Source: Halosolutus gelatinilyticus (GTDB lineage: Archaea > Halobacteriota > Halobacteria > Halobacteriales > Natrialbaceae). From it: a stretch of 64,000 nt of DNA. Positions 20,092 to 44,820 of this stretch are shown piece after piece. Numbering within the stretch: the first letter of the stretch is position 1; every line of letters begins with the position of its first letter. The DNA lies in contig NZ_CP095491.1 of the NCBI RefSeq assembly GCF_023028105.1, forward strand, positions 3,472,001 through 3,536,000, in the 5' to 3' direction. The position numbers and the translations under genes were made by a program. The notes under the pieces are model-generated. The model ran no database searches, was not told the origin of the DNA, and saw nothing but the letters and a program-made list of their open reading frames with translations.

Positions 20092-20195
20092 TTTCCGTCC
20101 CTCCGAGTCGTGTCCGCAAAACCGTTTGGGTTTTCGTCGCGTGGGCATCCGTACCAGTCCGCCGGTCGCATCGGCGGTGCCGATCCATAGAAGCG

Positions 20196-20202
20196 CTTAA
20201 GA
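20196..20202 (+). promoter_or_regulatory. TATA box for the 20227 transcript
   Basis: CTTAAGA lies 25-31 bases before the ATG at 20227, fitting a leaderless transcript. Confidence 0.5.
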
Positions 20203-20226
20203 AACCAGAGTGGCACGTATTGAGCG

Positions 20227-20355
20227 ATGTCCAACCAGCAGGACCTCCCCGCCGACGGTCGAATCCGGATCGAGCAGGAGCGGGAGCGAAGTGACCGACT
20301 CGCGACGAGCACCGCTTGCGAACCGATCGGCCGCGCCGCGAGGTGGGACCGATGA
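20227..20355 (+). CDS. Very small protein coupled to membrane protein gene
   Basis: A 42-residue frame (MSNQQDLPADGRIRIEQERE...) starts 25-31 bases after a TATA-like CTTAAGA, which suits a leaderless mRNA. It ends at TGA 20353-20355, overlapping the ATG at 20352 of the next gene (ATGA). The first 25 codons have haloarchaeal bias and a charged helix; the end is less clear. I do not recognise it. It may be a real microprotein or a leader ORF that couples translation of the membrane protein. Confidence 0.5.
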   Translation: MSNQQDLPADGRIRIEQERERSDRLATSTACEPIGRAARWDR

Positions 20356-20609
20356 CGGGTTCGACCGCGAGTTCCAGCGGCCTCGGACTGTTCGATACGC
20401 CCTTCAACACCGGCGCGACGCTTCTTTCTGCCGTCGCGTTTCTCATGGTGATCGTCTTCCTCGTAAGCGGCTACCAGGGGATGGCGCTGCTGTTCGTCGG
20501 GCCGGAACTGACGCTCCTCACCGGACTCGTCGGGGCGACGATGTCCCTGGGCGTCGCCGCCGTCTCGCTCGTCGCCGCAGTCTACATGGAATCCGGCTTC
20601 GGCGAATAA
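20352..20609 (+). CDS. Small membrane protein, function unknown
   Basis: The 85-residue product has two or three hydrophobic helices: TLLSAVAFLMVIVFLVSG (about 24-41) and LLFVGPELTLLTGLVGATMS with LGVAAVSLVAAVYM (about 47-80). It starts at the ATG overlapping the stop of the 42-residue ORF. No family is recognised. It lies between asd and the S17e gene and has its own promoter through the upstream ORF. Confidence 0.65.
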   Translation: MTGSTASSSGLGLFDTPFNTGATLLSAVAFLMVIVFLVSGYQGMALLFVGPELTLLTGLVGATMSLGVAAVSLVAAVYMESGFGE

Positions 20610-20849
20610 CGCCTGCTTTTAAATCTCGAACTCGGTCGCGGATCGTCTCTCCCCGACGCGCATACGCTTCCCGCGGCGACGCCTCGATCGATCGCGGACG
20701 CGACTACCGATTGCGGGCGCGGCCGACCACGGTTCCGCAGCCGAAACGGACGGCGGACCGGGAGACGGGACGAACGGCGGCGCGGTCGATCGGCGGTGCG
20801 ATCGCTCGCCAGTCGCTGGCGGATCGACTTTCGGGACGAGAGAACAGCC

Positions 20850-21041
20850 TTACGCCGACGCTTCGCCGCCTTTCTTTCGCGTGACGTAGCCCGCGATCCG
20901 GTTCCGGACGCCCTTCGACTCGACGTTGGTGAGCTTCTCGACGCTCTCTTTGTTCTGCTCGAAGTCGGTCGTGAAGGCGGTCGGATACTTCTCCAGGAGG
21001 ATGTTCCCGGTCTTCTTGACGTAGGCCGGCTTGATTGCCAT
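20850..21041 (-). CDS. rps17e: 30S ribosomal protein S17e
   Basis: The 63-residue protein MAIKPAYVKKTGNILLEKYP shows the full S17e signature, with FEQNKESVEKLTNVESKGVRNRIAGYVTRKK folding as a three-helix bundle. This archaeal/eukaryotic ribosomal protein binds the small subunit. The length is normal for archaea. The stop lies about 240 bases from the preceding membrane protein gene, with nothing recognisable between. Confidence 0.95.
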   Translation of the reverse strand: MAIKPAYVKKTGNILLEKYPTAFTTDFEQNKESVEKLTNVESKGVRNRIAGYVTRKKGGEASA

Positions 21042-21157
21042 AGAGGGGATTCCGTCTAGAGACTCTTATAACGCACCATTTTCGCTGATGGCCGAACGCG
21101 ACTCCCCTCGGTATGCGGACCGCGCTCGGTGGTGGGCTCGTCGACGATCGGCCCGGA

Positions 21158-21562
21158 TCACTGTCCCGGAGATGGCGTCCGCGTCGTCGCCGTCGGCTCC
21201 GTCGCCACCCGCCAGGCCATGAGACTCATCGCAACGATCAGGCAGCCTCCCCAAAGGAATATCGTCGACAGCAGCGCCTCGTTTCCGGTTCCAAACGCGA
21301 CCCACCACGTGCCGGGCAGTAACCATTGACCGACGAGGTAGGGCCCGGAAATACCCCTTCGTAGCCGCCCTTCGATCGTGAGCGCGTCGACGGCGAACCC
21401 GGTTACGATCGCGAGGATCGATAAGACGCCGAGGTGGACGTGACCGTTGACGACCCAGAACGGCGGGGCCGTATCGACCGCGAAGAGATACCCTTGGTAC
21501 AATCCGACGACCATCGCCACGACGAGCCCGAGGAATCCGGACGTTTTGAGCAGACGCGTCAC
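21158..21562 (-). CDS. Four-helix membrane protein, function unknown
   Basis: The 134-residue product starts with GTG and has four hydrophobic helices: LKTSGFLGLVVAMVVGLYQG, VNGHVHLGVLSILAIVTGFA, YLVGQWLLPGTWWVAFG and LLSTIFLWGGCLIVAMSLMAW. The histidines in NGHVHLG recall heme-copper oxidase-like or membrane heme proteins, but this is too weak for a family call. It lies upstream of, and divergent from, the HTH_10 regulator gene at 21805. Confidence 0.65.
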   Translation of the reverse strand: MTRLLKTSGFLGLVVAMVVGLYQGYLFAVDTAPPFWVVNGHVHLGVLSILAIVTGFAVDALTIEGRLRRGISGPYLVGQWLLPGTWWVAFGTGNEALLSTIFLWGGCLIVAMSLMAWRVATEPTATTRTPSPGQ

Positions 21563-36965: not shown

Positions 36966-38732
36966 ATGGAGTTCGCCACGTTCGCCGATCGCGCCGCCGC
37001 GATCGAAGCCGAGCCCGCCGACCTCGAGATCGTCGACCGCGTGACCGCCCTGCTCGTCGACGCGGGCGACGATCTGGAGATCATCGCGCGGTTCGTTCAG
37101 GGGCGAGTGTTCCCGGCGTGGGAGTCGACGACGCTCGATATCGGCCCGACCACGTGTTACGAGGCGATCGCCCGCGCCGCCGGAACGAACGTGGACGCCG
37201 ACGACGTCGAGGATCGGCTCGCGGAGCTGGGCGAGATCGGCGACGTGGCGGCAAGCTACGAGTTCGGCGGTCAGCAGGGACTGGGCGCCTTCACCGGCGG
37301 CGGGGCCGACGGGAACGACGGCGGCTCCGGCGACCTCACCGTCCGCGAGGTCCACGAGACGCTGACCGACCTCGCGACGACCGAGGGCGCGGGCAGCCAG
37401 GATCGCAAGGTCGACCTCCTGTTCGGCCTCTTCAACCGGTGTTCGAGCGAGGAGGCGCGCTACCTCGCCCGACTCGTTCTCTCGGAGATGCGCATCGGTG
37501 TCGGAGAGGGTACGGTTAGGGACGCGATCGCCGCGGCGTTCGACGCGCCCGCCGATCGGGTCGAACGCGCTCTCCAGGTGTCGAACGATTACGGGGAGGT
37601 GGCCAGAATCGCTCGCGACGAGGGCGTCGAGGGGCTCGACGCGACGGACCTCGAACTCGGGCGGCCGGTTCAGGCGATGCTCGCGCAAGCCGGGACCGTG
37701 ACCGACGCACTCGAGGAGTGGGACGAGGCGGCCGTCGAATGGAAGTACGACGGGGCGAGGGTGCAGTTGCACCACGATCCGGGTGCCGCCGCGGATCCGA
37801 AGTCCGATACCGAGGATTCGGCGTCGCCCGCCGCGGATCCGGACGCGACCGGCGAGACGCGCGTCTTCTCCCGCAACATGGAGGAGGTCACGGACGCGCT
37901 CCCGGAGGTCGTCGAGTTCGCCGACGCCCACCTCGATCGGCCTGCGATCCTCGACGGGGAGGTCGTCGCGATCGACGACGACGGGGCGCCGCTGCCGTTC
38001 CAGGAGGTCTTAAAGCGATTCCGGCGCAAACACGACGTCGCGAAAGTCCGCGAGGACGTCACCGTCAGGCCGGTCTTCTTCGACTGTCTACACGTCGACG
38101 GGGACGACCTGCTCGACGAACCCCTCACGACCCGACACGATCGGCTCGAGGCGGTTCTCACAGAGGAACCCGACCAGGACCCCGAGGACGTCCCGGCGCT
38201 CTCGCTGCTGTGGCTCACCGGCGACCCCGACGAGATCGAGTCGATCGACGCCGACGCGCTCGAGGCGGGCCACGAGGGAATCATGCTCAAAAATCCCGAT
38301 TCCGCCTACTCGCCGGGCCGGCGGGGGAAGAACTGGCGAAAGCGCAAGCCAGACGTCGAGACGCTCGACTGCGTCGTCACCGGCGCCGAGTGGGGCGAGG
38401 GCCGGCGCGCAACCTACCTCGGCACGTTCGAACTCTCGGTTCGCGACGGGGACGACCTGGAGACGATCGGCAAAGTCGCGACCGGTATCACGGACGAGAA
38501 ACTCGCCGAGTTGACCGACCTGCTCGAGCCGCACGTCGCCGCGGAATCCGGCCAGGAGGTCGAACTCGAACCCGCGATCGTCTTCGAGGTCGGCTACGAG
38601 GAGATCCAGACCTCGCCGACCTACTCGTCGGGGTACGCGCTTCGATTCCCGCGTTTTGTGGGCGTCCGCCACGACAAGAACCCCGAAGACGCGGAGACGA
38701 TCGATCGGGTCGAACGGCTTCGAGGCCGATAG
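36966..38732 (+). CDS. lig: ATP-dependent DNA ligase
   Basis: The 588-residue enzyme has an N-terminal DNA-binding domain (about 1-220). The adenylation domain carries nucleophile Lys260 in EWKYDGARVQ, and the OB domain ends KNWRKRKPDVETLDCVV. Other nucleotidyl-transferase motifs are FSRNMEEVTDALPEV, LDGEVVAI and HEGIMLKNPDSAYSPG. It seals nicks during replication and repair. Two acidic inserts (about 107-120 and 270-292) lengthen it relative to crenarchaeal ligases, a normal halophile trait. A TTTTATT box lies about 30 bases before the ATG. Confidence 0.95.
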   Translation: MEFATFADRAAAIEAEPADLEIVDRVTALLVDAGDDLEIIARFVQGRVFPAWESTTLDIGPTTCYEAIARAAGTNVDADDVEDRLAELGEIGDVAASYEFGGQQGLGAFTGGGADGNDGGSGDLTVREVHETLTDLATTEGAGSQDRKVDLLFGLFNRCSSEEARYLARLVLSEMRIGVGEGTVRDAIAAAFDAPADRVERALQVSNDYGEVARIARDEGVEGLDATDLELGRPVQAMLAQAGTVTDALEEWDEAAVEWKYDGARVQLHHDPGAAADPKSDTEDSASPAADPDATGETRVFSRNMEEVTDALPEVVEFADAHLDRPAILDGEVVAIDDDGAPLPFQEVLKRFRRKHDVAKVREDVTVRPVFFDCLHVDGDDLLDEPLTTRHDRLEAVLTEEPDQDPEDVPALSLLWLTGDPDEIESIDADALEAGHEGIMLKNPDSAYSPGRRGKNWRKRKPDVETLDCVVTGAEWGEGRRATYLGTFELSVRDGDDLETIGKVATGITDEKLAELTDLLEPHVAAESGQEVELEPAIVFEVGYEEIQTSPTYSSGYALRFPRFVGVRHDKNPEDAETIDRVERLRGR

Positions 38733-38851
38733 CGGGGTGGAACGATCTGCGACGGCGAGTCGCACCGCCGGTGTTCGTCTGCGTACAACATCTCGGTTGC
38801 GAGTCTCGATCGCCGCCCAACATTCATACGGCAGATCGTTGCAATCGGACT

Positions 38852-40456
38852 ATGTCGCAGCCCCCGACGGCCGATACGGACGGGGAACGACCCTGGGATC
38901 GTTCGCCGGGGGGCGTCTCGATCGAACTGTATCCGATCGCGGTCCTCACGGCCGCGCTCCGGCTGTTCCGATTGGGGGCCGAGAGTTACTGGCTCGACGA
39001 GGTCGTCTCGGTGACGCTCGTCACGTCGAACACGCCGTACGAACTCCTGGTCAGCGTACCGGGGAACGATCCCCACCCGCCGCTGTACTTTCTCCTCCTT
39101 TCGGGCTGGATGGCGATCTTCGGAACGAGCGAATCGGCCGCGCGACTACTGTCGGCCCTCGTCGGTGTCGCCACCGTACTCGTCCTCTACGCGATCGGTC
39201 GGCGGCTCTTCGATCGAGAAGTCGGGGCGATCGCGGCAGCGCTCGTCGCCGTCTCGCCGTTTCACGTCTGGTACTCCCAGGAGGTTCGAATGTACAACCT
39301 GCTCGCGCTGCTGACCGCGCTCTCGTTCTACTGGTTCGTGCGGATCCACCGAGAGAGAGCGGACGAAACCGACGTTCGAGACGACATCTGGTACGTCGTC
39401 GCCACGGTTCTGCTCGGCTACACGCACGTCTTCGGATTGTTCGCGATCCTCGCCCAGAACCTGTACGTCTTCTCTCGGCCCGTCGTCCGGATCGTCCCCC
39501 GTTCGCGGCTGACGCTCCGGCGCTGGATCGCTCTCCAGGGGATCACCGCGCTACTGCTCTCCCCATGGCTAGTGCGGTTGTTCCGCCGGACAATGGTGGC
39601 GCACGCCGGCGAAACGAGCAACGTCTCGTGGATTCCGCTGCCGACGGCCGAGACCGTCAGGCAGACGTTCGCCGCGTACCTCGGCGGCTACCTGTTCGGC
39701 GAGTCGCTCCCGATCCTCGTCTCGCTCGTCGTCGCGGCGTGTCTCGTGCTCGCACTCTCGGGCGACCGCTGGACAACGGCGCGGAATCGCGGTGCAGCGG
39801 AATCCGATCGCGGTGCGGCGTCGAGCGACCGCGGAACAGCGGCGGCGACCGATCACGGGGATGTGCCGGTAAACGGCGTCTACGCGGTCGTTCTCTGGTT
39901 CGTCGTGCCGATACTCGTCCCGATCGCCGTCTCGCACGTCGTCGCGCCGATCTTCGTGGATCGCTACTCGATCGGGGCGTCGCTGGCGTTTTTCCTCCTG
40001 ATCGCGATCGGCGTGCGGACGCTCTCCCGCCCGACGCTTCGGTACGTGATCGTTGGAGTGCTTCTCGTCGGACTCGTGGCGCCGCTCCCGACGTACTACG
40101 AGGAGGACCAGAAAGAGCAGTGGCGAGAGGCCGCCGCCGCCGTCGAGTCGAACGTCGACGGCGACGACGTCGTCCTCGTCAGCAGACCGTTCGCGGAGGG
40201 GCCGTTCAGCTTCTACTTCGATCGGTCGAACGCGACCGTCGTCCGGATCGACTCCGACGCGTCGGTCGACGAGATACGGGCGTCCGTCGACGGCTACGAC
40301 GACGTCTGGGTCGTGCTCTCGTACACCGATTCGTCGACTGAGCAGCGGATTCTCGAGGCCGTGGCCGAGCGGCCCGACTACCGCGGTCCGGTTGCGGAGA
40401 AGCGGTACAACGGGATCACGGTGTTCGGGTTCGAACGGACCTCGAGCAACGGGTGA
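38852..40456 (+). CDS. GT39-like membrane glycosyltransferase
   Basis: The 534-residue protein has about 10-12 hydrophobic helices and the ArnT/PMT-type first loop: RLGAESYWLDEVVSV (about 32-46, with the catalytic aspartate) and DPHPPLYFLLLSGW. QEVRMYNLLALLTAL is also typical. Such enzymes use polyprenyl-phosphate-linked sugars on the outer face of the membrane. A hydrophilic loop (about 308-340) contains short repeats (RGAAESDRGAASSDRGTAA). A soluble domain of about 100 residues ends the protein. It faces a gene cluster for a polyprenyl-phosphate-pentose precursor, which could be its donor. Confidence 0.8.
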   Translation: MSQPPTADTDGERPWDRSPGGVSIELYPIAVLTAALRLFRLGAESYWLDEVVSVTLVTSNTPYELLVSVPGNDPHPPLYFLLLSGWMAIFGTSESAARLLSALVGVATVLVLYAIGRRLFDREVGAIAAALVAVSPFHVWYSQEVRMYNLLALLTALSFYWFVRIHRERADETDVRDDIWYVVATVLLGYTHVFGLFAILAQNLYVFSRPVVRIVPRSRLTLRRWIALQGITALLLSPWLVRLFRRTMVAHAGETSNVSWIPLPTAETVRQTFAAYLGGYLFGESLPILVSLVVAACLVLALSGDRWTTARNRGAAESDRGAASSDRGTAAATDHGDVPVNGVYAVVLWFVVPILVPIAVSHVVAPIFVDRYSIGASLAFFLLIAIGVRTLSRPTLRYVIVGVLLVGLVAPLPTYYEEDQKEQWREAAAAVESNVDGDDVVLVSRPFAEGPFSFYFDRSNATVVRIDSDASVDEIRASVDGYDDVWVVLSYTDSSTEQRILEAVAERPDYRGPVAEKRYNGITVFGFERTSSNG

Positions 40457-40500
40457 CCTTCCGCAACCGCGTGGACGGACGGCGCGTCGTCTTTCGGCGG

Positions 40501-41592
40501 TCAAATCCGCTTGAAGGCGAATTTGGCCAGCTTCAGGGCGCCCTGATCCCACGCGACGCGGTGATCTCGCCCCGTCCGATCGCCCCGCTCCTCGTAGTTC
40601 TCCAGGTACCACCGGTACGTGTCGACCAGGGCCTCCTCGTTCGAGTACTCGGGCTCCCACCCGAGTTCGCGCAGTTTCTCGACGGAGACGTACGAATCCT
40701 CGTGGGCGGTCTCGTACACCCACGGGTACAGCGGCGAGAGATCGAGCGCGTTCAGGACGCGGAGCGCGAGCACTGCCAGGAGAGCCGGCGTCCCGATCAC
40801 GCGCTTGCCCGTTCCGGCCTCGTCGATCACCGCCTGGAAGTCCGATTTCATCGTCTCGAACTCCGTCGCACCCACGTTGTACGTCTCGTTCGCCGCGTCC
40901 GCGTCGACGTCGGTCAGCAACCCGATCGCTCGCACGAGATCGTCCACGTGCAGGAGCTGATACTGGTTGGTTCCCCAGCCGACGAGCGGCACGTTCGCGC
41001 CGTCCTCGACCCAATCGAAGAGGATCTGGAAGACGCCGAGCCGTTGCGGGCCGACGAACGTTTTCGGACGGAGGATCGGAACGCACATCCCCATCCGCCG
41101 GAAGTCCTCGCAGACCTTTTCGGCCTCGATCTTCGCCTCTCCGTACGGCCCGACGCCGTCCAGCGGGGACTTCTCGGTTATCGGATGGGCGTCGTGGGTT
41201 CCGTAGACGGCCGTCGACGAGACGTACACCACGCGATCGACGCCGTGGTCGCGGGCCGCCCACAGCACGGACCGCGTCCCGTCGACCGTCACCTCCCGGA
41301 TCACGTCGTCGTCCCACAGCGGGAGCGCGGCCGCGCTGTGAACGATCACGTCCGCGTCGGCCGCTTCGATCGCGTCCGCGACCCGCTCTTCGTCCCGCAC
41401 GTCGCCACGGACGAAGCCGATCCCCGCCGTGTCGTCCTCGTCGTCGAACGGTTTCAGGTCGAAGGCGGTGACGTCCCACCCTCGGTCGCGGAAGTACTGA
41501 CACGCGTGGAGACCCAGAAACCCGGTTCCGCCCGTAACGATCACGGAGTCGTACCGTCGCTCTCGGGACGCCTCTTGGTCCGTCTCGACCAT
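40501..41592 (-). CDS. NAD-dependent epimerase/dehydratase (extended SDR)
   Basis: The 363-residue protein starts at one of two adjacent ATGs (41592 or 41595). The Rossmann motif VTGGTGFLGLHACQYF and the catalytic Tyr-Lys pair YGEAKIEAEK mark an extended short-chain dehydrogenase. DVIVHSAAALPLW and RPKTFVGPQRLG are typical of nucleotide-sugar or sugar epimerases. It lies between a membrane glycosyltransferase and a UbiA-type phosphoribosyltransferase gene, so it may epimerise a sugar nucleotide or a lipid-linked pentose. The substrate is unknown. Confidence 0.85.
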   Translation of the reverse strand: MVETDQEASRERRYDSVIVTGGTGFLGLHACQYFRDRGWDVTAFDLKPFDDEDDTAGIGFVRGDVRDEERVADAIEAADADVIVHSAAALPLWDDDVIREVTVDGTRSVLWAARDHGVDRVVYVSSTAVYGTHDAHPITEKSPLDGVGPYGEAKIEAEKVCEDFRRMGMCVPILRPKTFVGPQRLGVFQILFDWVEDGANVPLVGWGTNQYQLLHVDDLVRAIGLLTDVDADAANETYNVGATEFETMKSDFQAVIDEAGTGKRVIGTPALLAVLALRVLNALDLSPLYPWVYETAHEDSYVSVEKLRELGWEPEYSNEEALVDTYRWYLENYEERGDRTGRDHRVAWDQGALKLAKFAFKRI

Positions 41593-41615
41593 CATATCAA
41601 ACGGATGCGGAGAAC

Positions 41616-41623
41616 CTTTATCA
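41616..41623 (+). promoter_or_regulatory. TATA box for the ubiA operon
   Basis: CTTTATCA lies about 30-37 bases before the ATG at 41653. It is the reason an upstream in-frame ATG at 41605 is not used as the start. Confidence 0.5.
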
Positions 41624-41652
41624 TTCTTGTTCTCGTTTTCGCTGACGACCGG

Positions 41653-42564
41653 ATGGCCGAGTCTTCACGTACGATAACCCCGGTACCCACGGTCACCGGA
41701 TTACTTCGGGAAATTCGGCCGTGGCAGTGGTACAAGCAAGGGGTAATGTTCCTCGGCATCGTCTTTTCGAAGAACCTCCTCGACCTCGACGCGTGGATCA
41801 ACCTGCTCGTCGGCGTCGCGGCCTTTACCGCCATCGCGGGCGCGGCGTACATTTTCAACGACATCAACGATCTCGAAGAGGATCAGAAGCACCCGGAGAA
41901 ACGACACCGACCCATCGCCAGCGGACAGGTTTCCGTTCCGGTCGGCGCCGCCTTCGGACTCCTCCTCGCCGCGATCGGTTTCGGAGCAGCCTACAGTCTC
42001 GGCCCGCTGTTTCTCGGCGTTCTGCTCGCCTATCTCAGTCAGAACGTCCTCTACTCGCTGTACCTGAAGCGGATCGTGTTCGTCGACGTGCTGATCGTCG
42101 CCATCGGGTTCGTGCTCCGCGCGATCGCCGGCGTCGTCGCCATCGACGTCTACCTGAGTCCGTGGCTTATCGTGAGCACGTTCCTCCTCGCGCTCGTTCT
42201 CGCGCTCGGAAAACGCCGCCACGAACTGGAGATCACGACCGATCCAGGGGAGACCAGGCGGGTTCTTGGGGCGTATTCCGAGAACGACGTCGATCAACTG
42301 CTCGTAATGACCATGTCGACGCTGTTGATGGCCTATTCCCTGTACACGTTCTTTCGCACCAATTCCGCGATGATGGTGACCCTTCCCCTCGCGTTCTTCG
42401 GCGTGTTTCGCTACCACCACCTCGTCCACACGACGGGTATCGCCGGCCAGCCCAAGTACCTCCTCACGGACGGTCCGTCGATCGCGAATCTCCTCCTGTG
42501 GATCGGCCTGGTCGTCGCCGTCCTCTACGATCTGCCGTCGGTCGCGATCGAGGTGATTCGGTGA
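41653..42564 (+). CDS. UbiA-family decaprenyl-phosphate phosphoribosyltransferase-like enzyme
   Basis: The 303-residue membrane protein has 8-9 helices. NDINDLEED (about 73-81) is the Mg-diphosphate-binding NDxxDxxxD motif. KHPEKRHRPIASGQV directly after it is the hallmark of phosphoribosyltransferases of the Rv3806c type. VDVLIVAIGFVLRAIAG, also typical of that subgroup, follows. The expected reaction joins PRPP and a polyprenyl phosphate to give polyprenyl-phosphate-5-phosphoribose. Quinone- or lipid-making UbiA enzymes usually lack the HPxKRxRPI block. Its stop overlaps the PHP gene (GTGA), which in turn overlaps the next gene. Confidence 0.82.
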   Translation: MAESSRTITPVPTVTGLLREIRPWQWYKQGVMFLGIVFSKNLLDLDAWINLLVGVAAFTAIAGAAYIFNDINDLEEDQKHPEKRHRPIASGQVSVPVGAAFGLLLAAIGFGAAYSLGPLFLGVLLAYLSQNVLYSLYLKRIVFVDVLIVAIGFVLRAIAGVVAIDVYLSPWLIVSTFLLALVLALGKRRHELEITTDPGETRRVLGAYSENDVDQLLVMTMSTLLMAYSLYTFFRTNSAMMVTLPLAFFGVFRYHHLVHTTGIAGQPKYLLTDGPSIANLLLWIGLVVAVLYDLPSVAIEVIR

Positions 42565-43199
42565 GACGGTACGATCTGCAGGTTCACACCGACGTCTCCC
42601 CCTGCTCGCGAAATTCGCCCCGTGACGTGGTCGACGCGGCGCTGGACGCCGGCCTGGACGGCATCGCGATCACCGATCACGACACCCTCGACGGCTACGA
42701 AGCGGTGGCCGCCCTCGCCCCCGACGACCTCGCCGTGATTCCCGGCGTCGAGGTAACGACGACGCAGGGCCATCTGCTCGCGCTGAACGTGAGCGAGGTG
42801 CCGCCGATGGCCGATCCCCTCGCCGTGATCGACCGCGTCCACGACCAGGGCGGACTCGCGATTCTCTCGCACCCCTTCGACAGCCTCCGCGAACACTACA
42901 CCGCCGATCTCGAAGCGATCGCGAAGCGCGTCGACGGCGTCGAGGCGACGAACTCGCGGTGCGTGCTCCCGCGGTTCAACCGTCGAGCGCGATCGTTCGC
43001 GGAGAGCCACGGCCTCGCGATCACCGGCGGGAGCGACGCGCACTTTCCGATGGAAGTCGGGCGGGCCTGCACGATCAGCGATCGGCCCGTTCTGGAGGCA
43101 ATTCGTGCGCGCGCGACACGAACCGACGGACGCGGCGGCTACGTGTCGGGACACGTCGCCACCAAACTCTCGGACGCCCTCTCGCTGCTGGACGTATGA
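42561..43199 (+). CDS. PHP-domain phosphoesterase
   Basis: The GTG at 42561 overlaps the ubiA stop. The 212-residue protein has the ordered metal motifs of the PHP superfamily: DLQVHTDVSPC (residues 5-15), ITDHDTLDGY, IPGVEVTTTQGH, LSHPF and GGSDAH. In the first motif the usual His-x-His is Gln-Val-His, as in some relatives. Such enzymes remove phosphate groups from sugars or nucleotides. Being coupled to a phosphoribosyltransferase, it could dephosphorylate the 5-phosphoribosyl lipid; that is inference. Confidence 0.85.
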   Translation: MRRYDLQVHTDVSPCSRNSPRDVVDAALDAGLDGIAITDHDTLDGYEAVAALAPDDLAVIPGVEVTTTQGHLLALNVSEVPPMADPLAVIDRVHDQGGLAILSHPFDSLREHYTADLEAIAKRVDGVEATNSRCVLPRFNRRARSFAESHGLAITGGSDAHFPMEVGRACTISDRPVLEAIRARATRTDGRGGYVSGHVATKLSDALSLLDV

Positions 43200-44176
43200 G
43201 CGGGCTCGATCGGGCGCGGACCGTCGTTCGACGACACGGCCTGTGGCTCACGGCGATCCTGACGGTCGCCATCTTCTTCGGCCTCTTCGCGTTCGGCGAG
43301 GCGGACGCGGTCAGCGAGGCGATCCTCTCCCTCGAACGGTGGCGGATCGGCACCGTGTTCGCGCTCGTAACCGTCGGCTACGGCGTTCGGTTTCTCAAGT
43401 GGGAGTACTACCTCCGCGAACTCGGCGTCGACGTCCCGATCGGCACGAGCCTGCTGGTGTTCATCAGCGGATTGATGATGACCGTCACGCCGGGCAAGGC
43501 CGGCGAAGTGTGGAAAGCGTGGTTTCTGCGCGATCTTCGCGGCGTATCCGTGAACCGGACGGCGTCGGTCGTCGGCGCGGAACGCGTCACCGACCTGTTG
43601 GCCCTCGCCGCGTTCGCCTTCCTCGGGGCGGCCGTGTACGAACAGTCACCGACGACGCTGCTCGTCGTCACGGCGATCTTCCTCGGCGGACTGGCCCTTC
43701 TCCGGTGGCGAACCGCCTGCCTTCGGATCTTGGGAGGACTGGAGTCGGTGCCGCTCGTCGGGGCCTACGCCGACGACGTCAGGGAGTTCTACGAGAATTC
43801 GTACGCGCTCCTTCGACCCCGCCCGCTGGTCGTCGCAGTGAGCATCAGCCTCGTCGCGTGGGGCCTCGAAGGCGTCGCGCTGTGGATCGTGTTGGACGGG
43901 TTTGCGCCGGGCGGGTCGGTCCTGCTGGCGCTGTTCGTGTTCGGCCTCGGATCGATCGTCGGCGCGGCGAGTCTGTTACCGGGCGGACTGGCCGCCACCG
44001 AGGCCAGCATGGTCGGAACGCTCGTCGTGCTCGGCTACTCGCGCACGGTCGCCGTTAGCGCGACGTTGGTCATCCGGGTCGGGACGCTATGGTACGGCGC
44101 CGCGTTGGGAACGACCGTGTTCGTCTGCTACCGGTACCTCCGGGAGCGGCGCGAATCCGCCGAAGCGCTTCGATGA
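43196..44176 (+). CDS. LPG-synthase-type membrane protein (UPF0104), possible flippase
   Basis: The ATG at 43196 overlaps the PHP stop (ATGA). The 326-residue protein has about eight helices and the family's marks: YGVRFLKWEYYLRELGV, VFISGLMMTVTPGKAGEVWKAWFLR and SLLPGGLAATEASMVG. This domain forms the membrane half of lysyl-phosphatidylglycerol synthases and the C-terminal half of AglD-like glycosylation proteins. It has been proposed to move lipid-linked molecules. Placement after a polyprenyl-phosphate-pentose enzyme fits a flipping role. Confidence 0.82.
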   Translation: MSGLDRARTVVRRHGLWLTAILTVAIFFGLFAFGEADAVSEAILSLERWRIGTVFALVTVGYGVRFLKWEYYLRELGVDVPIGTSLLVFISGLMMTVTPGKAGEVWKAWFLRDLRGVSVNRTASVVGAERVTDLLALAAFAFLGAAVYEQSPTTLLVVTAIFLGGLALLRWRTACLRILGGLESVPLVGAYADDVREFYENSYALLRPRPLVVAVSISLVAWGLEGVALWIVLDGFAPGGSVLLALFVFGLGSIVGAASLLPGGLAATEASMVGTLVVLGYSRTVAVSATLVIRVGTLWYGAALGTTVFVCYRYLRERRESAEALR

Positions 44177-44673
44177 GCCGACCGCTCGTTCGTCGCGATC
44201 GGTCGCCGTTCCGCGGCGCAGTTCGCGTTGGGACCCATTCGAATACTGGCGTCGTTTGCGGACGCGTTCCGTCGGAGCGGCGACTTCCGGTCGGACCCGT
44301 CGGCCCCGAGGGACTTCGGCTCGTCGGCGCCGACGTTCCCGGTATCGATGAGGATCGTCACGTCGTCGGCTTCGGGTTCGATTTCCGCCTCGAAGTGGAG
44401 GTGGTCGCCGAGGGGCGAAAGCTCGAATGTGAAGGGATCGCCGCCGGTGTTGGTCACGCGGATCTCGGCGGTCTGTGGCGGTTCGACCTCGACGGGGTCG
44501 GGGGCGGATTCGAATCCAAAGTCGTCGGGTCCCTCGACCACGGCCAATGCGTGGTCCGCCGCGACGGGGACCGGAAGGACGGCAGCTCCGATCGCGAGGA
44601 CGACCATCGCGAGTGTCGTACGGTTCGCTCGAAGTACGTTCAGTACGCGTTTGAGAGGGCTGTCGAGCATCAT
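44128..44673 (-). CDS. Putative secreted protein, uncertain 3' end
   Basis: An ATG pair at 44668-44673 opens a frame of about 180 residues. MMLDSPLKRVLNVLRANRTT leads to a hydrophobic stretch (LAMVVLAIGAAVLPVPVAADH) with a signal-like cleavage site. A beta-rich domain then contains PDPVEVEPPQTAEIRVTNTG and FTFELSPLG, like an Ig-type fold. A TTAACTA box sits at the leaderless distance. The last 60 or so residues are arginine- and serine-rich and the end overlaps 49 bases of the opposite gene, so the true gene may stop earlier or be frameshifted. Confidence 0.5.
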   Translation of the reverse strand: MMLDSPLKRVLNVLRANRTTLAMVVLAIGAAVLPVPVAADHALAVVEGPDDFGFESAPDPVEVEPPQTAEIRVTNTGGDPFTFELSPLGDHLHFEAEIEPEADDVTILIDTGNVGADEPKSLGADGSDRKSPLRRNASANDASIRMGPNANCAAERRPIATNERSAHRSASADSRRSRRYR

Positions 44674-44820
44674 CGACCGGATACGCACCCGCCCGTAGTT
44701 AACATCAGGATAGCTGAAATATCGCGTTAACCGGTCCGTCGGTTTTACGACGAGCGCGCCGAGTAGAGAGCCAGCGCCCAACGCGGTCGAGACCGCGCCG
44801 GCCGAGACAGGTAAGCACCC

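Follow-up and report, generated by a model that had tools for sequence, protein, structure and literature searches.

Lipid-linked pentofuranoses are made in bacteria by three-component systems, such as the one encoded by ORF12-ORF15 of Citrobacter youngae O1/O2 (Kelly et al. 2024, PMC11127046). In these systems, a UbiA-type polyprenyl-phosphate phosphoribosyltransferase (PPPRS) makes polyprenyl-phosphate-ribose-5-phosphate from phosphoribosyl pyrophosphate (PRPP), a phosphatase converts this product to polyprenyl-phosphate-ribose, a flippase exports it, and a GT-C glycosyltransferase transfers the sugar (PMC11127046). A single short-chain dehydrogenase/reductase (SDR), ORF13, converts ribofuranose to xylofuranose in Citrobacter, and DprE1/E2 homologues accompany arabinofuranose (PMC11127046). 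In the haloarchaeon Haloferax volcanii, AglD, AglR and AglS form the dolichyl-phosphate-mannose (DolP-mannose) branch of N-glycosylation, in which a DolP-monosaccharide is added outside the cell (PMC3871713). The locus considered here occupies positions 38852-44176 of a 64,000-nucleotide stretch of the Halosolutus gelatinilyticus genome (contig NZ_CP095491.1, positions 3,472,001 to 3,536,000; referred to as the window), and its sequence suggests that it probably makes and uses a dolichyl-phosphate-linked pentofuranose.

All five reading frames of the locus are open. A GT-C glycosyltransferase of the PMT_2/GT39-like type (38852-40456, plus strand, 534 aa; Pfam PMT_2 8.8e-17, PMT also matched) is followed on the minus strand by an extended SDR (40501-41595, 364 aa; Pfam Epimerase 6e-43) with the motifs TGGTGFLG and YGEAK. 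Divergent from the SDR gene and separated from it by 57 bp is a UbiA-family gene (41653-42564, plus strand, 303 aa, ATG start; Pfam UbiA), which leads an apparent operon with a PHP-family phosphoesterase (42561-43199, plus strand, 212 aa, GTG start; Pfam PHP and PHP_C) and an LPG_synthase_TM (UPF0104) membrane protein, here LPG_TM (43196-44176, plus strand, 326 aa, ATG start; Pfam PF03706 1.2e-36). The UbiA and PHP genes overlap by the four bases GTGA, and the PHP and LPG_TM genes by ATGA. An earlier reading of the window from its letters alone, hereafter the sequence-only reading, had described these five neighbours and their overlaps; coordinates, overlaps and Pfam domains all agree with it.

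The UbiA protein carries the motifs NDINDLEED and KHPEKRHRPIASG, both of which the sequence-only reading had singled out in assigning it to the decaprenyl-phosphate phosphoribosyltransferase (DPPRS) type of Rv3806c. The profile searches point the same way. NF008977 (decaprenyl-phosphate phosphoribosyltransferase) was the top NCBIfam model for the protein at 229.9 bits, narrowly under its cut-off of 234 bits, which four related archaeal loci passed with 252-261 bits; the models for quinone, heme, chlorophyll and archaeol prenyltransferases reached at most 57 bits. Searched with the same NF008977 model, Haloferax volcanii gave no homologue. The only meaningful PDB matches were the two cryo-EM structures of Rv3806c (8j8j best, E 2.5e-28; the other 5.1e-18). 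In an IQ-TREE phylogeny, haloarchaeal UbiA proteins and their methanogen homologues formed one clade (98/93) within the DPPRS-type group, and the window protein was split from its seven UbiA paralogues with support of 97/91, its exact placement being unsure because the paralogue branches are long. A position among quinone or archaeol enzymes, which the sequence-only reading had named as refuting its proposal, was thus not what the tree showed.

The 2024 structure of Rv3806c identified the residues that bind Mg, pyrophosphate and the 5'-phosphate (PMC10994848). Arg22, Lys28, Tyr70, Asn73, Asp77, Lys87, Tyr138 and Lys143 (Rv3806c numbering) are kept in the aligned UbiA protein, as is Arg90, read from the aligned KRHRP motif, which brings the PRPP-, Mg- and pyrophosphate-binding residues retained to nine. 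They comprise the Mg site (Asn73/Asp77), the pyrophosphate cluster (Arg22/Lys87/Arg90/Lys143/Tyr138) and the phosphoribose-specific pair Lys28 and Tyr70; the combination Lys28/Tyr70/Lys87 occurs in none of the seven paralogues. Tree and active site argue for membership of the DPPRS/PPPRS group, the narrowly missed model cut-off being a caveat.

Gene linkage gives a second line of evidence. Eight of 116 Halobacteria genomes, spread over five families, had an intact UbiA gene, and the SDR (E <= 1e-60) was found in exactly those eight; the chance of two sets of eight coinciding in 116 is about 1.6e-12 if kinship is ignored. LPG_TM and the PHP gene were present in the same eight genomes plus one other, G066, when PHP was counted at 60% identity or more; remoter PHP proteins, with 45% identity or less, are present in many genomes and represent a different paralogue. 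The four-gene arrangement recurs in other genomes. Screening plasmids and the genomes of GTDB species added loci from Haloarcula amylolytica, Halalkalicoccus, Natrinema, Halococcus, Natrialba, Natronorubrum, Natronococcus, Haloterrigena, Halostagnicola and metagenome-assembled genomes (MAGs). Of 24 distinct haloarchaeal loci, 23 have the full UbiA-PHP-LPG_TM set (the exception, L038, stops at a contig edge), and 21 have the SDR. The grouping of the five genes exceeds chance, and SDR, UbiA, PHP and LPG_TM constitute a constant four-gene unit. The sequence-only reading had supposed that the five genes could form one pathway and had named a lack of co-occurrence in related genomes as refuting it. 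The neighbourhood is in fact conserved over Halobacteria, and what did not hold is the place of the GT39 gene, which is optional. In G066 (locus L078:8972-10694), only about 40 C-terminal UbiA codons are recognisable, the SDR is gone, and PHP and LPG_TM are intact, so that this locus is a decaying copy of the cassette.

Different GT-C genes accompany the cassette. The GT39 type lies near six distinct haloarchaeal loci; L022, L028, L033, L048 and L049 each have a homologue next to the cassette. It was rejected as a fixed member since it also occurs in G058, a genome without the cassette. An AglS-like GT-C (PF15971, 'DolP-mannose mannosyltransferase') lies near ten distinct haloarchaeal loci and accompanies the cassette in many Natrialbaceae. 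More than half of the loci from haloarchaea have a GT-C gene nearby, and some copies sit inside glycan clusters (L019, L020). The cassette flanks hold no universal fifth gene; AglS-like, GT39 and arylsulfotransferase genes recur in them, not everywhere. The arylsulfotransferase-like gene (PF05935) adjoins the cassette at L050:16810-18114 and in L022, L025, L026, L028, L032, L033 and L036, and in Natronococcus CG52 a sulfotransferase and an adenylyl-sulfate kinase are nearby; the glycan being decorated may carry sulfate. On the plasmid of the same strain (L048:15556-15909 and 20131-21216), what remains of an SDR gene (45% identity) diverges from UbiA, and a complete SDR gene lies at another place in the cluster, which suggests loss of the SDR followed by re-acquisition.

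The locus is an insertion. The order ligase-hisC-adenylate kinase-pgsA is conserved in the family. Six relatives, two of them from the same genus, have about 0.1-1.5 kb between the DNA ligase gene and hisC, and the window has 6.1 kb. Homology to these two congeners ends at 38725 and picks up at 44807, leaving a strain-specific block (38726-44806) that holds all five genes, which therefore arrived together or were lost elsewhere. Repeats were looked for at the insertion ends, and nothing convincing was found. The cassette is plasmid-borne in several relatives, one genome (G088) has two copies, and in the tree the window UbiA is nearer to its counterparts in Haloarcula and Halalkalicoccus than to most of those in Natrialbaceae. 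This pattern fits spread of the cassette by horizontal transfer.

How might the products of the locus act together? In the pathway that we favor, the UbiA protein, working at the cytoplasmic face of the membrane, would transfer 5-phosphoribose from PRPP onto polyprenyl phosphate (dolichyl phosphate in archaea), and the PHP phosphoesterase would remove the 5'-phosphate from the lipid-linked ribose. The SDR would then epimerise the lipid-linked ribofuranose at C3 or C2 to xylo- or arabinofuranose, LPG_TM would flip the lipid-linked sugar, and the GT-C enzyme, GT39-like here and AglS-like in many relatives, would attach the sugar to a glycan or glycoprotein on the outer surface of the cell. For the predicted structure of LPG_TM (mean pLDDT 79.7), MprF structures were the sole matches with E under 0.001, with a TM of about 0.6 and a large rmsd, which amounts to fold-level support and fits a flippase. 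The SDR has a C-terminal tail (HRVxWxQGxL), partly conserved out to Streptomyces, that is a possible membrane contact. That the phosphatase has a part in the pathway is suggested by the repeated pairing of such UbiA proteins with phosphatases of unrelated families, namely a fused HAD domain in NGR234 and Paracoccus, PAP2 in Rhodococcus, a divergent PAP2 in Marivivens and PHP in archaea.

Compared with the Citrobacter system, the predicted roles are alike, with a PRPP-using UbiA PPPRS, loss of the 5'-phosphate, export by a flippase, transfer by a GT-C enzyme and an optional single SDR epimerase. The parts differ. The archaeal cassette presumably works on dolichyl phosphate; its predicted phosphatase is a PHP protein linked to UbiA rather than a fused HAD domain, its candidate flippase is an LPG_synthase_TM protein with an MprF-like fold rather than a MATE protein, and its GT-C is PMT_2/GT39-like or AglS-like where the Citrobacter enzyme belongs to GT136. 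Its SDR is a candidate counterpart of ORF13. The cassette is thus not a Citrobacter-type system as defined, since the flippase family differs, but by analogy it would work like one. The Haloferax AglD/AglR/AglS branch likewise charges one sugar on dolichyl phosphate inside the cell, moves it across and adds it outside through AglS, whose relatives accompany the cassette; there the donor comes from a conventional glycosyltransferase, AglD, whereas here it would come from PRPP by way of a UbiA enzyme. The AglR flippase family differs from the LPG_TM family.

The sequence-only reading had taken the mycobacterial decaprenyl-phosphoryl-arabinose pathway (Rv3806c, Rv3807c, DprE1/DprE2, Rv3789) as the equivalent, and here we part from it. 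The first-step enzyme is of the same family with the same PRPP site, but the cassette lacks a convincing DprE1, a PAP2 phosphatase, an SMR flippase and the arabinan GT-Cs. The best DprE1 match in the window genome is weak (E 1e-4, 25% over 130 aa, an FAD-domain match), and no gene in the haloarchaeal loci had the DprE1 or DprE2 query as its best match, the search with DprE2 covering these loci. We therefore rejected the arabinose route of mycobacteria; bacterial three-component systems with a single SDR are the closer likeness and appear to be the nearest precedent. The absence of a DprE1/E2 pair is also why the SDR is taken as the epimerase. Arabinose itself is not specifically supported, as the search found no DprE1 relative beyond weak FAD-domain matches, and because DprE1/E2 homologues accompany arabinofuranose, xylofuranose seems a better guess.

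Related loci lie beyond the haloarchaea. Within the same phylum but outside the haloarchaea, 13 copies of a DPPRS-type UbiA gene are beside or near a PHP gene; the genomes are mostly those of methanogens, with mcrA present in six of the first seven. LPG_TM is also present in most of the fully covered loci, and the proteins are 35-45% identical to those of the window. A haloarchaeal counterpart had been put forward as new by the sequence-only reading; the neighborhood is indeed kept across Halobacteria, but it is shared with these methanogen-class genomes. The methanogen UbiA-PHP-LPG_TM loci have a strictly conserved DUF362 gene (PF04015; 57-79% identical) at L057:10108-11172, L059:8092-9261, L061:12107-13234 and L062:12148-13287, and also in L093, L095 and L096; it is absent from the haloarchaeal loci, which have the SDR instead. 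One methanogen locus (L060) combines UbiA with an SDR (51% identity) and a GT-C, with no PHP or LPG_TM nearby. Among bacteria, SDR homologues adjoin PPPRS-type UbiA genes in Streptomyces and Nonomuraea (41-43% identity). Rhizobial symbiotic-plasmid loci (L073, L074, L076) share the PPPRS-type UbiA and a homologue of the same SDR family (33-36%); a HAD-UbiA fusion is near the SDR in NGR234, and a presumed one in S. garamanticum. The rhizobial loci differ from the archaeal cassette in the HAD fusion, in an SMR transporter that takes the place of LPG_TM and in extra oxidoreductases, including a GMC oxidoreductase, and are possibly an undescribed lipid-linked pentose system of symbionts.

Several considerations weigh against the pathway proposed above. 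Computation shows the gene calls, the homology to Rv3806c with its PRPP site, the linkage and operon structure, the fold classes and the insertion, whereas all the reactions, and with them the carrier lipid, the sugar and its acceptor, are assigned from sequence and by analogy. The UbiA score falls about 4 bits short of the family cut-off, and two phosphoribose-binding residues of Rv3806c are replaced (Gln135 by Asn and Tyr157 by Phe), both variants also occurring in several bacterial homologues. The open-licence papers that we searched hold nothing specific on pentose or ribofuranose in haloarchaeal glycans, and to our knowledge no pentofuranose of such kind is known from these glycans. Three haloarchaeal MAG copies (L029-L031) and almost every methanogen-class copy have no SDR beside them, and the SDR thus appears dispensable for the core steps. 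This last point bears on an alternative in which the same lipid-linked route operates but the donor stays ribofuranose, the glycan carries ribofuranose, and the SDR acts on another glycan sugar as a nucleotide-sugar epimerase or reductase. The closest solved relatives of the SDR are indeed nucleotide-sugar dehydratases and epimerases. Set against this are the identical distribution of SDR and UbiA among the 116 genomes, the recurrence of SDR homologues by PPPRS-type UbiA genes in a methanogen, Streptomyces and Nonomuraea and in rhizobial loci containing HAD-UbiA, and the direct precedent of Citrobacter ORF13 (PMC11127046). A ribofuranose donor is therefore an unlikely, if still the most serious, competitor.

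A second concern is the PHP protein. Its predicted structure has the PHP fold (mean pLDDT 82.6), with RNase AM as the best PDB match followed by other metal-dependent phosphoesterases. At residue 7 (window 42579-42581), the position of the first metal-binding His in the HxH motif, each of the 23 haloarchaeal copies has Gln. This makes the phosphatase activity of the protein uncertain, and the 5'-phosphate might instead be removed by a housekeeping phosphatase while PHP has a structural or other role. We regard this as somewhat less probable again, given that the other metal-site motifs (TDHDT, E64, SHPFD, GSDAH) are conserved, that the four methanogen copies compared keep the canonical His in the same gene pairing, and that no other part of the locus is as well conserved in archaea as the pairing of UbiA with PHP. 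Another alternative is that the product is a ribosylated membrane lipid, formed by transfer of phosphoribose to some archaeal lipid phosphate that is not dolichyl phosphate, rather than a glycan donor. UbiA, PHP and LPG_TM would be enough to make and flip such a lipid, LPG_TM resembles the lipid flippase MprF, and GT-C genes are not found near every copy. The GT-C genes near more than half of the copies and the copies within glycan clusters speak against it, as does the fact that all characterised homologues supply polyprenyl-phosphate donors to GT-C enzymes (PMC11127046), and we think it improbable. Finally, that UbiA is a conventional quinone, archaeol, heme or carotenoid prenyltransferase with coincidental neighbors draws on its superfamily membership and on an Mg-binding NDxxD motif common to most UbiA enzymes, but it was rejected as very improbable by the model scores, the separation from all seven paralogues, the Lys28, Tyr70 and Lys87/Arg90 cluster that no paralogue has, and a linkage too tight for coincidence.

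The preferred reading thus remains a dolichyl-phosphate-linked pentofuranose pathway. Its fuller form, in which the bacterial parts give way to a PHP phosphatase, a flippase resembling MprF and one SDR epimerase that acts independently of DprE1, and haloarchaeal surface glycans carry PRPP-derived xylo- or arabinofuranose built on dolichyl phosphate, seems to us evenly balanced between right and wrong. The open-licence literature that we searched contains no archaeal description of such a pathway. If the proposal is correct, PRPP-derived lipid-linked sugars, which we have so far found described only in bacteria, would operate in haloarchaea and methanogens too, with phosphatase and flippase families recruited independently in archaea. 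The automatic label 'decaprenyl-phosphate phosphoribosyltransferase' would need qualification, since it implies mycobacterial arabinan. A class of sugar would be predicted for archaeal surface glycans, and a branch of the UPF0104/LPG_TM family would gain a concrete substrate. As a strain-variable four-gene unit, the cassette would be akin to serotype-like surface variation and may be relevant to virus attachment.

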